DNA of 64,000 nt from Thermococcus sp. JdF3 (GTDB lineage: Archaea > Methanobacteriota_B > Thermococci > Thermococcales > Thermococcaceae), in the NCBI RefSeq assembly GCF_012027495.1, contig NZ_SNUK01000002.1, positions 186,001-250,000 on the forward strand. Direction: 5' to 3'. Made by a program: the position numbers and the translations under genes. Positions within the stretch are counted from its first letter, which is position 1. Every line of letters starts with the position of its first letter. Shown here one piece after another: positions 55,165 to 59,806 of this stretch. The notes beneath the pieces are model-generated. The model did no database searches. It was not told the origin of the DNA and worked only from the letters and a program-made list of their open reading frames with translations.

Positions 55165-56112
55165 TCAAAGTTTGAGCTCCACCCAGTTCTCCCTCTTCTT
55201 CTTGTAGACCCTCACCAAGCCCTGCTTCTCAAGGCGCTGGAACATCCTCCAGGCGGTTGTCTTTGGAATCCCAAGCATCTCCCGGACTTCGGCCTGTTTG
55301 GCCCTGCCGCCCCTGTCGAACAGGTAGAGCAGCGCATTCTCCTCGTCCTTCGTCAGTTCGTACTCCTTGAGGCGTCTCTCGAAGTCCTCCCTGCTGATGC
55401 CGGGGGTCCTTTCCTCTTTTCCCCCGCGCTTCATGTAGGCAAAGCCCCCACCGGCGGCAAGTGCGAGGAGGACCAGGATACCGACCACCGTCCAGTTCGT
55501 GGAGCCCTCATCAGGAGCACTCGGAGTCGAGGATGGAGAGCCCGGATTGGAGGGCACCGTTGAGTTGGAAAGTTCAGTGGTCGTTCCCGATGTGGGCGGG
55601 ACTGTTGGAACATTGGTTCCCGTTGGTTGGTATTCAAGGACATAGGAAACCGTCTGGTTTCCGGGGGGCATTAGTATAGAGTTTCCATCTATCTCAAGGG
55701 GTATGTCGGTGAGGTCAACTATGACAGCGTTATCTGGAAACGTGATCTTAACGGGGACGGTTGAGTTGAAACGAATACTCCATATGGCGCCATTTTTTGC
55801 GGTCAGGTCGGGAGTGTAATAGGCTATTCTAACGCCCGTGGCGTTTTCAAAGTACACGGTAAGAGTGGAGCCGTTTATCTCATACGGCAGGGGTTTTCCG
55901 TTCTCATCGATAACGGTCAGCCCCTCAACGTTGGTAGCGAGGAGCGGGACGGAAAAGCTGACCGTGTAGTTCTCGGGAACGATGACCGCGACTACCTTAA
56001 CGTACCCGTCGGAATAGACCGTGAGGCCCAGGGACTCGACGGAGTACTGCCCGCTTACGAGGGGCAGGGCCATGAGCGCAATTACGAGCACCATCACTGC
56101 TTTGCTCCTCAT
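55165..56112 (-). CDS. membrane-tethered winged-helix regulator, module B
   Basis: The 315-residue protein has a signal peptide (1 to about 21) and an outside beta-rich domain (about 23-170) with VDLTDIPLEIDGNS and MPPGNQTVSY. A Pro/Thr/Ser linker (about 172-205) leads to one transmembrane helix (about 210-228, TVVGILVLLALAAGGGFAY) followed by Lys-Arg. A cytoplasmic winged-helix domain (about 245-315) has AEVREMLGIPKTTAWRMFQRLEKQGLVRV. This is a one-component transmembrane transcription factor, with the sensor outside and the DNA-binding end inside. It is a paralogue of 57656-58495. The upstream gene encodes the secreted partner of the same module. Start: ATG 56112 after GGAGGTGCTGGG. Confidence 0.82.
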   Translation of the reverse strand: MRSKAVMVLVIALMALPLVSGQYSVESLGLTVYSDGYVKVVAVIVPENYTVSFSVPLLATNVEGLTVIDENGKPLPYEINGSTLTVYFENATGVRIAYYTPDLTAKNGAIWSIRFNSTVPVKITFPDNAVIVDLTDIPLEIDGNSILMPPGNQTVSYVLEYQPTGTNVPTVPPTSGTTTELSNSTVPSNPGSPSSTPSAPDEGSTNWTVVGILVLLALAAGGGFAYMKRGGKEERTPGISREDFERRLKEYELTKDEENALLYLFDRGGRAKQAEVREMLGIPKTTAWRMFQRLEKQGLVRVYKKKRENWVELKL

Positions 56113-56167
56113 CCCAGCACCTCCGGAAGTTAAGAGATCCCCCTTAAAAAATATTAGAATGAGGGGC

Positions 56168-57502
56168 TCACTCGTCATCCTCCGACTCGTCTTTCTCGTC
56201 TTTACCGTCGTGCTCCCTGTCCTCGTTGTCATTCTCAGAGTCCTCATGCTGGCCGTTGTCGTCATCGTGGGAATCCTGCTCCTCGTAGTCCCCATCCTGG
56301 TCATCTTCGCTCTCGTCGTCGGTATATTCGTCCCCGTGCTCGTCTTTCTCCTTGTGGTCATCCTCGTATTCGTCCTCGCCATCCTTTTCATCCTTGTGCT
56401 CTTCTTTCTCTTCCCTCTCCTCCTTTTCATGCTCTTCGCGCTCCTCGTGCTCCTTCTCCTCCCTGTACTCCTTCTCTATCTCTTTGGTGTCCTCGATTAT
56501 CTCCTTCAGCTCCTCGTTGATGTCGTGGAGCATGTCGAGAGCTTCTTCGTACTGGCCGCTCTCGACAAGGGCGTTGAATCCCTCGTACATCGTCTGGAGC
56601 TCCATCAGGTTCTCCTGGAGGTATGTGACATTTATCGTGGAGTTCTGAAGCATGGCCATTAGCTCCTGCATGAGTTTCATCTGCTCCTGGAGCTTCCCCA
56701 TGAAGGCCTGGCTTATCTCATCGGCCTTTGCACCGACGATACCCTCGGAGAGATCCTCAACGGCATCCTCAAGCTTGTCCATGAGCTCCTCCGCGTACTC
56801 AAGGTCTGCCTTGAGGACGGTAACGTTGCCGCTGGCGAGGTCCTGGGCAACGACCATATAGGCGGCCTTGGTCTCGTTGTAAAGCGCCATGACGTAGGTA
56901 ACGTTGAGACCCTCGCTCTGAGCCTCCGCGATGACTTTCTCAACGTACGGGAAGTACTCCGCGGCCCTGTGAAGCTCCTCCTTGGCGTCCATTACTGTCT
57001 CATAGTACTCGTGCTCTTCCTCCATCTTCTTCTCCTTGTGCTCCTCGTAGTAGTCGGTCAGCTCCTCGATGACCTCCTTGTAGAGGTAGAGGGCATTCAT
57101 AGAGGCGTTTATGCTCTCGCTGTAGTTGCCGGCGTTGTAAAGTTCCCACGCCTGGGCACGGGTTGCTTCAGCCTGGGAGTAGAGGTCAAGGGTGTGATTG
57201 GAGATTGTGACGTTGTTCGCATTGAGCTCGGCCATCAGACCTGCCGTGTAATCGGAGACCTTATCCAGTATCACAAGCAGGTTGTACGCCTGAACACCGC
57301 TCGTATTCGTTGTATTGGTGACGTTGGTCATGTTAACTGGGGTGGTGTTGGTCGCGTTCGTGGCGTTGACCTGCAGGGTCTGGTTGCTCACTGCGGTTGT
57401 GTTGGTTGCCGTGGCGTCTACGCTGGCCGCCCATGCGGCGGTGCTGAGTGGTATCAGTGCTCCTATGAAGAGCACCAGCAGTGTTTTCATACTCATCCTC
57501 AT
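56168..57502 (-). CDS. secreted helical protein with acidic Asp/Glu/His tail, module B
   Basis: The 444-residue exported protein has a signal peptide (1 to about 25). An Asn/Thr-rich stretch (about 28-65) follows with many N-glycosylation sequons (TNTTAVSNQT, NATNATNTT, NVTNTTNTS). Long helical hairpins (about 75-345) then include the block YNETKAAYMVVAQDL. The tail (about 335-444) is almost only Glu, Asp, Lys and His (EEREEHEKEEREEKEEH, SEDDQDGDYEEQDSHDDDN), likely disordered and metal-binding. The helical part is paralogous to the protein at 58528-59733 (YNETKDAYKVVLDDL). The downstream gene encodes the membrane regulator. GGTGAGAGCC precedes the ATG, and a shared 16-bp motif lies at 57563-57578. 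No known family. Confidence 0.8.
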   Translation of the reverse strand: MRMSMKTLLVLFIGALIPLSTAAWAASVDATATNTTAVSNQTLQVNATNATNTTPVNMTNVTNTTNTSGVQAYNLLVILDKVSDYTAGLMAELNANNVTISNHTLDLYSQAEATRAQAWELYNAGNYSESINASMNALYLYKEVIEELTDYYEEHKEKKMEEEHEYYETVMDAKEELHRAAEYFPYVEKVIAEAQSEGLNVTYVMALYNETKAAYMVVAQDLASGNVTVLKADLEYAEELMDKLEDAVEDLSEGIVGAKADEISQAFMGKLQEQMKLMQELMAMLQNSTINVTYLQENLMELQTMYEGFNALVESGQYEEALDMLHDINEELKEIIEDTKEIEKEYREEKEHEEREEHEKEEREEKEEHKDEKDGEDEYEDDHKEKDEHGDEYTDDESEDDQDGDYEEQDSHDDDNGQHEDSENDNEDREHDGKDEKDESEDDE

Positions 57503-57534
57503 GGCTCTCACCTGATGTTGTGTAGTGTCCACAC

Positions 57535-57542
57535 GTATATTA
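57535..57542 (-). promoter_or_regulatory. TATA box of module B
   Basis: The minus strand reads TAATATAC about 33-40 bp before the ATG at 57502. Confidence 0.55.
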
Positions 57543-57562
57543 GGAACCCGCCGGACTTTGCT

Positions 57563-57578
57563 CGTTTCAAAACGTTCC
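57563..57578 (-). promoter_or_regulatory. 16-bp motif shared by the two module promoters, copy B
   Basis: On the plus strand this reads CGTTTCAAAACGTTCC. It matches the copy at 59791-59806 in 14 of 16 positions and lies 61 bp before the first gene's ATG, about 20 bp upstream of the TATA box. Upstream of TATA is the usual site of archaeal activators. Confidence 0.6.
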
Positions 57579-57655
57579 TCCGAGTTTCTCCTTTACAAAA
57601 AAGCACTTAAGAAGAGGAAAGAGGAGGTTAAACGCCTCACTTGTCTCCATAGGCC

Positions 57656-58495
57656 CTAAAACCTGAGCTCCACCCAGTTTTCCTTCCTGCCCTTAAGAAC
57701 CTTCACCAGACCCTTCCTCTCAAGGCGCTTGAACATCCTCCAGGCGGTGGTTTTGGGTAGACCTATCGCTTCGCGAACCTCTGCCTGACTGGCCTTTCCG
57801 CCCTTGTCGAAGATGTAGAGCAGCGCGCGCTTCTCCTCCTCGTTGAGGTCGAGGTTTTCCAGCCGGGCTTGGAATTCCTCCCGGGTGGGCATTGATTTTC
57901 CTCCGCCTTTCCTTCTCCAGAGCGCGTAGGCGAAACCTCCGATCACTCCAAGACCGGCCAGGATTAGCAGATACGCCGAACTCTCCGTTCCGCCCTCACT
58001 GCCAGCCCCTCTGCCGTTGAGTGTGTAGGAGACGCTCTGGTTTCCGGGAGGCATGGTTATCGAGTTCCCCGCTATTTCGAGGGGTATATCGCTCAGGTCG
58101 ACCACTATGGCGTTCTCAGGCAGTACTACAGTGAAGGAATCGTTGGTCGCAACGTGAAGCGTCCACACCATGCCTTCCTTCGCGGTCAGGTCGGAGGTAT
58201 AGTAGGAGACCTTGACTATGCCGGCGTCCCCGGAATATATGAGGAGGCTTCCGTTCTCAAGCCGGAAGTTTACGGGGTTTCCGCTCCCGTCTTCAACGAT
58301 AACGTTTTCGTAATGGTCACCGAGGAGGGGAAGTTCAATCTGGGAGGAATACTCCGCGGGCAGGATTTCATATTCAACCTTGACGTAGCCGTCATTGTAG
58401 ACCGTCAAAACCAGGGATGAGACGGTATAGGCACTAACCCCGTGCAGGAGGGTGAGCGTTATCAGCATGAGGATTGCGGCCCCTTTGAGTCTCAT
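57656..58495 (-). CDS. membrane-tethered winged-helix regulator, module A
   Basis: The 279-residue paralogue of the module B regulator has a signal peptide (1 to about 22). An outside beta-rich domain (about 24-160) carries VDLSDIPLEIAGNS and MPPGNQSVSY. A short Gly/Ser linker and a TM helix (about 175-193) follow with RRK, and the winged-helix domain (about 205-279) has AEVREAIGLPKTTAWRMFKRLERKGLVKV. The DNA-binding helices differ little from module B, so both could read the same site. It follows the module A secreted-protein gene after 32 bases. The protein ends WVELRF, close to WVELKL of the paralogue. Confidence 0.82.
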   Translation of the reverse strand: MRLKGAAILMLITLTLLHGVSAYTVSSLVLTVYNDGYVKVEYEILPAEYSSQIELPLLGDHYENVIVEDGSGNPVNFRLENGSLLIYSGDAGIVKVSYYTSDLTAKEGMVWTLHVATNDSFTVVLPENAIVVDLSDIPLEIAGNSITMPPGNQSVSYTLNGRGAGSEGGTESSAYLLILAGLGVIGGFAYALWRRKGGGKSMPTREEFQARLENLDLNEEEKRALLYIFDKGGKASQAEVREAIGLPKTTAWRMFKRLERKGLVKVLKGRKENWVELRF

Positions 58496-58527
58496 TTAAG
58501 CATCCCTCCATAACTAAAAAGGAAAGG

Positions 58528-59733
58528 TCAGGAGTGGGCGAGTATGAACTCATCGACCTTGTGGAGCATGTCCAGTGCTATTGCGAAGTGGGCTTTGGCC
58601 TGGAGGGGCTTCTTTGCCTTGAGAAGCTCGACGCCTATCCTGAGCTCCTGGGCGGCCACTTTCAGCTGAACCTCCGCCCTGGTGGTGTCAACACCCCTGC
58701 TCTTGAGCTCGCGGAGCGCCTTCGCGTCCTTCTGAATCCTGTCGTTCATCTCCCTGAGGAAAGCGCGGACGTCCTTCAGCTTTTCATCGAGCTCCCTCTC
58801 GCGAACCTTTCTGAGTACGAACTCAACGGCGTTGTGGAACTCAACTATGGTTTCCCTGTTATCCTTCATGACGGTCAGAGCGTCCTCCCACTTGCCCTCG
58901 TCGGCCAGGGCCTTGACCTGGCTGTAAACCTCCGAGAAAGCATTGAGCCTCTCCTGGAGCTCCGTCACGTTGTAACCGTTCTGCTCCCCGACTTCGATTG
59001 CCTTCTGAGCTATCTCCATTCCCTTCTCGCCCTTGATCAGGAAGTCCTTGACGATCTCCTCAGCGTTTGCGTAGGCGAGCTCCTCGCGGACCTTTCTCAG
59101 CTCCTCGTCGAGGAGGGCTTTCTTCTCTTTGGCGACTTCATAGTCTGCCTTCGCCTTTTCGTAGTCCCCGGCCTTAAGGTCATCGAGCACAACTTTGTAG
59201 GCATCTTTGGTCTCGTTGTAGAGCGCGGTGAGGTTGCTCACGTCTATCCCCTGGTTCCCCGCCAGCCTTATGGTCTTCTCAACGAACCTGAAGTACTCCG
59301 TCATGCGCTCGATTTCCATTTTGATGCGTTCCCTTACATCCTGGACCTTCTCTTTGGCCTCCTTAAGCGCTGAGAGGGCAACCTTGTAGTGGTGCATGGC
59401 CGTGAGGCTGTCCAGTATCGAGTTGTAGTAGTCGCCGGCCTCGTACTCGCTCACCGCCTTTTCCCTGTAGTCCTCTGCGAGCTCGTAGTGGGTGAGTATC
59501 GTGGAGTTCTCGGGCAGCTTGTCCTTTATAGGTTCTATCTTCTCCCCGGCGAACTTGCTCAGCCTCTGAAGCTGGTCAATCAGCTGACCCGCTATCACCA
59601 TCTCCCTGGTGCTGTTGTCCATTGCTACTCCAGTGTACGAGCCGGTGTTGTTGCTCTCAGCCAGGCCCAGCGGTATTACGCTGCCAAGGAGCAGCATTGC
59701 CAGGGCCAGTGCAAAGCCCTTTATCCCCTTCAT
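58528..59733 (-). CDS. secreted helical (coiled-coil) protein, module A
   Basis: The 401-residue exported protein has a signal peptide (1 to about 25). The rest is nearly all charged helix with repeated hairpins (HYELAEDYREKAVSEYEAGDY, ALYNETKDAYKVVLDDLKAGDYEKAKADYE, ALADEGKWEDAL). This looks like a chain of TPR-like or spectrin-like pairs. It is paralogous to 56168-57502 but lacks the acidic tail and the Asn/Thr-rich stretch. There is no membrane anchor at the C-terminus (FILAHS). ATG 59733 is preferred because GGTGATGCCC lies before it. It is the first gene of its pair, with the regulator gene downstream. Family unknown. Confidence 0.8.
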   Translation of the reverse strand: MKGIKGFALALAMLLLGSVIPLGLAESNNTGSYTGVAMDNSTREMVIAGQLIDQLQRLSKFAGEKIEPIKDKLPENSTILTHYELAEDYREKAVSEYEAGDYYNSILDSLTAMHHYKVALSALKEAKEKVQDVRERIKMEIERMTEYFRFVEKTIRLAGNQGIDVSNLTALYNETKDAYKVVLDDLKAGDYEKAKADYEVAKEKKALLDEELRKVREELAYANAEEIVKDFLIKGEKGMEIAQKAIEVGEQNGYNVTELQERLNAFSEVYSQVKALADEGKWEDALTVMKDNRETIVEFHNAVEFVLRKVRERELDEKLKDVRAFLREMNDRIQKDAKALRELKSRGVDTTRAEVQLKVAAQELRIGVELLKAKKPLQAKAHFAIALDMLHKVDEFILAHS

Positions 59734-59765
59734 GGGCATCACCGATGAACGCTAGGGGCTAAACC

Positions 59766-59773
59766 TATTTGAG
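59766..59773 (-). promoter_or_regulatory. TATA-like element of module A
   Basis: The minus strand reads TCAAATAG about 33-40 bp before the ATG at 59733. It is weaker than the module B box, which would suit an activator-dependent promoter. Confidence 0.35.
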
Positions 59774-59790
59774 GACTCCGACGGAACGAA

Positions 59791-59806
59791 CGTTTCAGAG
59801 CGTTCC
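59791..59806 (-). promoter_or_regulatory. 16-bp motif shared by the two module promoters, copy A
   Basis: On the plus strand this reads CGTTTCAGAGCGTTCC, 58 bp before the module A start. It overlaps the end of the preceding gene. A further GGAACG at 59783-59788 makes a wider inverted pair with the CGTTCC at its right end. Confidence 0.6.

Follow-up and report, generated by a model that had tools for sequence, protein, structure and literature searches.

Positions 55165-59739 on the minus strand of a 64,000-nucleotide stretch of Thermococcus sp. JdF3 (contig NZ_SNUK01000002.1, positions 186,001 to 250,000; hereafter the window, to which all coordinates refer) contain two homologous gene pairs, each consisting of a gene for a secreted helical protein (S) followed by one for a membrane regulator (R). 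In our judgment such S–R modules are probably old archaeal two-gene circuits that lead from the membrane to DNA, in which R serves as the tethered regulator and S as both its secreted partner and its main output. The features that sequence comparison supports are the pairing itself, the predicted topology of R, a shared operator, the near-exclusive placement of this operator before S genes, and conservation across lineages.

Conserved pairing of S and R

The first pair (module A) comprises S_A (58528-59739, minus strand) and R_A (57656-58495, minus strand; 279 residues), and the second (module B) comprises S_B (56168-57502, minus strand; 444 residues) and R_B (55165-56112, minus strand; 315 residues), with S-to-R gaps of 32 or 55 bp. 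For S_A, the list of open reading frames (ORFs) gives a GTG start at 59742, with alternative ATG codons at 59739 or 59733, and a longer listed start for R_B at 56430 would overlap S_B. The two R proteins are 45% identical and the two S proteins 27%, and whole-genome searches returned the paralogues far above chance (E 2e-39 and 3e-33 for R, and 2e-27 for S). These coordinates, identities and E-values bear out the sequence-only reading of the locus as two pairs in the same order and on the same strand, and each of the four shared sequence blocks quoted in that reading was found in the pairs. The duplication in JdF3 is one case within a larger family that has several S–R classes per genome.

With respect to distribution, 91 of 94 Thermococcales genomes encode an R homologue and 85 an S homologue, and all six genera of the order are represented. 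Flanking DNA was collected around S or R matches in these genomes and searched with profiles that had been built up from the proteins of the window, such that the pairing rate describes matches rather than random loci. In the sampled stretches, R lies immediately downstream on the same strand for 103 of 117 S genes, mostly after a gap of less than 100 bp, and the possibility that homologues might be found mostly apart from each other therefore fails. The pairing also extends beyond the order, as R in f2 and f4, two sister families within the class, is preceded by a gene for a secreted helical protein of 272-302 residues; in family f5 an R homologue was found without S upstream. Taken together, the 103 pairs and the sister families provide R with the adjacent gene for an extracytoplasmic partner that characterizes co-component systems.

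Two kinds of locus depart from the full arrangement. Fourteen S matches lack R, ten of them near the main S class, and seven of these ten adjoin leuS. At eight loci in genera g2, g3 and g4, S is followed by a short R that ends just past the transmembrane (TM) helix and has no winged helix (seven of the eight end in ...WKR). That a short R is kept beside S suggests a use for the sensor domain there that does not depend on regulation. Distance trees of S and R are correlated (r 0.79), a value that exceeds those obtained when partners were swapped within genomes (mean 0.39, maximum 0.55 in 500 trials). This agreement indicates inheritance of S and R as one unit, and it fits, without proving, a contact between the two proteins.

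Architecture of the two proteins

R is predicted to be a type-I transmembrane regulator with its sensor outside and its DNA-binding domain inside the cell. Specifically, the AlphaFold model of R_A, built with 27 sequences (mean predicted local distance difference test score (pLDDT) 85), contains an N-terminal helix (residues 4-17), an extracytoplasmic beta domain (residues 23-159; 58019-58429, minus strand), a TM helix (residues 173-196; 57908-57979, minus strand) followed by the basic residues WRRKGGGK, and a C-terminal winged helix (residues 205-279; 57659-57883, minus strand) with the recognition helix PKTTAWRMFKRLE. The winged helix matches TrmB (PF01978) with an E-value of 7e-9, and both R_A and R_B exceed the curated cut-off for this family (35.8 and 32.3 bits, respectively, versus 25.6). 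For DUF7343 (PF24034), R_B is above the cut-off and R_A marginally under it. The model of R_A and the Pfam matches support the architecture and type-I topology proposed earlier from sequence. By profile and model, R thus joins a DNA-binding domain to a TM helix in a single chain, which makes it by definition a transmembrane transcriptional regulator (TTR). The motif PKTTAWRMF is invariant in the 27 aligned R proteins, and no other part of R is as well conserved as the recognition helix.

A search with Foldseek related the beta domain of R_A to the N-domain of M1 aminopeptidases and to Ost1 (E 3e-5 to 1e-4, with low whole-query TM-scores). This resemblance, which rests on the model, speaks to fold and not to function, and R_A was rejected as an M1 aminopeptidase because only the N-domain-like beta fold was matched, with no catalytic peptidase domain found by profile search. 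Profiles and model likewise revealed no TrmB-type C-terminal sugar-binding domain, the winged helix being the C-terminal end of R; TrmB proper does carry such a domain, whereas the sensor of R is N-terminal and exported and is joined to a TM helix. Two plasmid-borne R homologues are annotated just as 'MarR family' and 'helix-turn-helix'. The R frame is broken or shortened in two genomes (L083:7258-8134 and L111:7156-7857; with a TGA in G027 and shortened in G029). TON_1525 of T. onnurineus was considered as an R homologue and rejected, as it is a Tfx-family regulator (PMC4791640).

The pLDDT is low on either side of the R_A TM helix (residues 162-172 and 196-199), which marks flexible stretches. 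Together with the single TM helix, these stretches could accommodate regulated proteolysis that frees R from the membrane as a soluble transcription factor, with the remaining circuit as proposed above, and an SppA-like protease gene does lie near the module in family f2. On the other hand, no membrane protease is prominent among the commonest neighbours in Thermococcales, the syntenic M42-type peptidase looks cytosolic, and in bacteria comparable tethered regulators work from within the membrane (PMC10269533). We regard release by proteolysis as quite improbable.

In the case of S, the AlphaFold model of S_A is all-helical (pLDDT 86), and the protein has a signal peptide, approximately 360 residues of helices and no TM helix. 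This is consistent with the earlier description of S as a helical protein with a signal peptide, to which S_B adds a small correction in the form of a very acidic C-terminal tail of approximately 100 residues (56171-56470, minus strand; 8 His, 25 Asp and 34 Glu) that S_A does not have. No Pfam or NCBIfam family matched S above its cut-off, the matches obtained being weak and of a generic helical kind, and no relative was found in the PDB by sequence search or fold search.

A shared putative operator upstream of S genes

The promoters of both modules contain a putative operator located directly upstream of, rather than over, an unusual TATA element. In module A, operator A (59783-59806, minus strand) reads GGAACGCTCTGAAACGTTCGTTCC and combines a direct repeat, GRAACG-N4-GRAACG, with a palindrome, GRAACG-N2-CGTTYC; it precedes the TATA-like element CCTCAAATA (59766-59774, minus strand), and an alignment of the regions upstream of module A orthologues displays the block GGAACGCTCTGAAACGTTCGTTCC ahead of TCCTCAAATA. 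In module B, operator B (57563-57578, minus strand), GGAACGTTTTGAAACG, precedes the TATA-like element CCTAATATA (57536-57544, minus strand), with GGAACGTTTTGAAACG standing ahead of TTCCTAATATA in the upstream region. Both operators reduce to GRAACG half-sites arranged as a direct and/or inverted repeat. Several relatives have unrelated sequence upstream of module A and nonetheless keep the operator, and its conservation is therefore not caused by the coding end that overlaps it in JdF3.

Among the 117 S genes, the direct repeat GRAACGYTYTGAAACG is found upstream with zero to two mismatches in 72 cases, while 351 shuffled sequences never had fewer than three mismatches. The palindrome is present with at most one mismatch upstream of 59 of the 117 (versus 2 of 585 shuffles). 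Many of these promoters come from close relatives, which makes the counts interdependent; more weight attaches to the occurrence of the predicted operator in six genera and in two families besides. In families f2 and f4, the palindrome occupies the equivalent place before S, with six of seven sites exact and the other carrying one mismatch. The operator is also retained where a full R is missing, as nine of the ten S-only loci keep the palindrome with no more than one mismatch and the short-R operons keep the direct repeat. This retention fits S as an output, with an R encoded elsewhere acting in trans.

Pattern searches of the 94 genomes for possible regulons found 72 sites with the strict combination of operator and TATA element, compared with one for the reversed control, and an S gene follows 70 of the 72. 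The JdF3 genome contains exactly two such sites, both within the window; the other near matches inspected in this genome fell in coding sequence or had no fitting TATA context, and a wider JdF3 regulon was rejected. The two remaining sites of the strict pattern stand before genes for a PMT_2 glycosyltransferase and a DUF257 protein, and relaxing the pattern brings in one small gene and additional DUF257 genes. The sites before PMT_2 and DUF257 genes are located at L244:2473-2512 and L245:4939-4989, the DUF257 case being present in four genomes of one genus.

Several observations suggest that R is the protein that reads this operator. The sister families share both the recognition helix and the operator. 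In class 1 (genus g3), the recognition helix is PKTT[VA]WRM[VI] and the operator is missing from all seven promoters (at least four mismatches). In a further subgroup with links to metals, an Arg is replaced by Lys in the helix preceding the recognition helix, and the discernible half-sites read GRAACC. Based on this indirect evidence, the C-terminal winged helix is probably a real DNA-binding domain, as the sequence-only reading had taken it to be. One might instead regard S and R as a structural surface complex whose winged helix does not bind DNA, with the promoter element belonging to another regulator of surface genes. Winged helices can bind proteins, and the short R at eight loci has none, but it would then be difficult to account for a recognition helix more conserved than the rest of R, for an operator that is nearly exclusive to S operons and changes along with the helix, and for the presence of both in sister families. 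We consider a purely structural role very unlikely.

Proposed circuit and metal-linked modules

In terms of mechanism, we propose that R is exported by way of its signal peptide and held by its one TM helix, with the beta domain outside and the TrmB/DUF7343-type winged helix inside. As a dimer or higher oligomer, R would bind the operator while remaining tethered to the membrane, and it would control the S–R operons as well as the S-only operons. Archaeal activators usually sit upstream of the BRE/TATA elements (BRE, transcription factor B recognition element), and because the operator lies directly upstream of TATA, R most likely activates transcription of S and of its own gene. S would accumulate at the cell surface and may act with or on the outside domain of R, thereby setting R activity. 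The state of the surface (the condition of the envelope or, for one subfamily, probably metals) would in turn set the rate at which the module is transcribed, in a feedback loop whose sign and signal we infer.

The suggestion of metals derives from the GRAACC subgroup, which comprises seven loci (L069, L089, L121, L128, L132, L136 and L137) with S proteins of 443-565 residues. These modules are divergently oriented beside genes for a CPC-type heavy-metal P1B ATPase and an ArsR protein, and their S proteins have tails enriched in Met/Cys or in acidic residues. These neighbours and tails make metals a likely signal in this subgroup. One set is carried on the T. peptonophilus plasmid NZ_CP014751.1. 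S_B of JdF3 has its acidic, His-containing tail but no P1B ATPase or ArsR neighbours, and the locus tags of a T. gammatolerans cadmium transcriptome could not be assigned to S or to R.

A simpler arrangement would have R act as a repressor or pure homeostat that senses the envelope alone (membrane or ligand), with S as a regulated surface or metal-binding product that never touches R. The S-only operons that keep the operator without a linked R are in line with this possibility, as are the few operators that front unrelated genes, and the seven loci just described have the neighbours and tails expected of a metal-binding product. It is less readily reconciled with a pairing kept across three families of the class, with an operator upstream of TATA rather than over it, or with the short R, which is unable to regulate and is yet kept beside S, an arrangement that suggests a direct interaction of S with the sensor domain. 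On balance we find the homeostat unlikely, though less so than the two alternatives discussed above.

The two-gene circuit also has evidence that weighs against it. Congruent trees are equally expected if S and R merely duplicate as one unit, and the S-only and short-R operons provide examples of S with no full-length cognate R. The operators before PMT_2 and DUF257 genes indicate that the regulon is not purely S–R, and some S–R operons have no clear operator match. The covariations of helix and operator each involve one clade, amounting to few independent events, and are suggestive only. Finally, a membrane tether limits access to DNA, and proteolytic release has a small probability.

The survey also came upon an S-like protein and further membrane regulators. 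A secreted CWB2 protein whose C-terminal domain is helical and S-like (L246:1857-3080; G000:C3) has relatives in 49 of 61 genomes of its genus, and one near match to the operator lies 126 bp upstream of the gene, although it is not clearly conserved among orthologues. A different type-I membrane regulator (L066:6051-7055; G000:C6) consists of a signal peptide, an outside domain that by eye resembles CWB2, a TM helix and a winged helix, and is not linked to S. The occurrence, elsewhere in the JdF3 genome, of predicted CWB2 domains fused to an S-like domain and, separately, on another type-I regulator points to the cell surface. A third type-I membrane regulator (L065:6596-7564; G000:C3) differs in its beta sensor and lacks an S partner.

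Relation to known regulators

TTRs have been catalogued in bacteria and archaea and are enriched in Thermococci (PMC10269533), and bacterial co-component systems, in which a TTR is accompanied by an adjacent partner, have been described there and in PMC13042144. R fits the TTR definition; a secreted partner, an operator and type-I polarity are not described for archaeal TTRs in the accessible part of the catalogue (PMC10269533). A characterized membrane-bound regulator, ArnR, with an N-terminal helix-turn-helix, is also known from archaea (PMC13286277). ArnR and ArnR1 of Sulfolobus are, like R, archaeal membrane-bound one-component proteins, but their helix-turn-helix lies in the N-terminal region and they regulate the archaellum. 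To our knowledge, neither has an S partner.

The closest functional likeness is to ToxRS, TcpPH and VtrAC, in which a tethered regulator with a single TM helix reads the outside and binds DNA, as is predicted for R, and is co-encoded with an extracytoplasmic partner. The DNA-binding domain of R is nonetheless C-terminal, whereas theirs is N-terminal; S is encoded upstream, soluble and all-helical, and no sequence relation was found; and the S–R module has an archaeal promoter and one operator common to paralogous modules. Membership of R in the ToxR-like family was rejected on account of the reversed polarity and of a TrmB/DUF7343-type winged helix in place of an N-terminal OmpR-type domain. 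In terms of S, the CpxP-, ZraP- and CnrX-type proteins are helical exported proteins controlled by the sensor that they modulate, and they act on histidine kinases or anti-sigma systems. S resembles them in being helical and exported, with a link to metals in one subgroup, but no sequence match to them was found.

No description of the S–R pairing or its operator was found in the open-access literature (subscription papers fell outside the scope of the search), and an open-access search likewise returned no literature on COG2512 or DUF7343. The earlier view that no archaeal system of this form had been described accordingly holds for the paired module and its operator, and not for membrane-bound regulators as such, since archaeal TTRs (PMC10269533) and ArnR were already known. 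What is new here is the operator common to S–R operons and the pairing of S with R; transmembrane regulators in Thermococci are already known. A more far-reaching proposal is that the modules represent an ancestral archaeal co-component system, composed of a reverse-polarity R and a secreted helical S, in which one operator has been kept since the common ancestor of Thermococcales and the sister families, duplicated modules may regulate one another as well as stray S genes, and one branch responds to metals. We give this fuller account about an even chance of being correct.

Surface-to-gene signalling in archaea is poorly known, and few membrane-bound archaeal regulators have been studied. The S–R module is present in nearly every genome of the Thermococcales, an order with genetically tractable species, and it makes testable whether tethered factors act at archaeal promoters and what role a secreted partner plays. 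That nearly every strong copy of the predicted operator stands before such a unit suggests that these archaea possess a simple feedback circuit from the cell surface to the gene.

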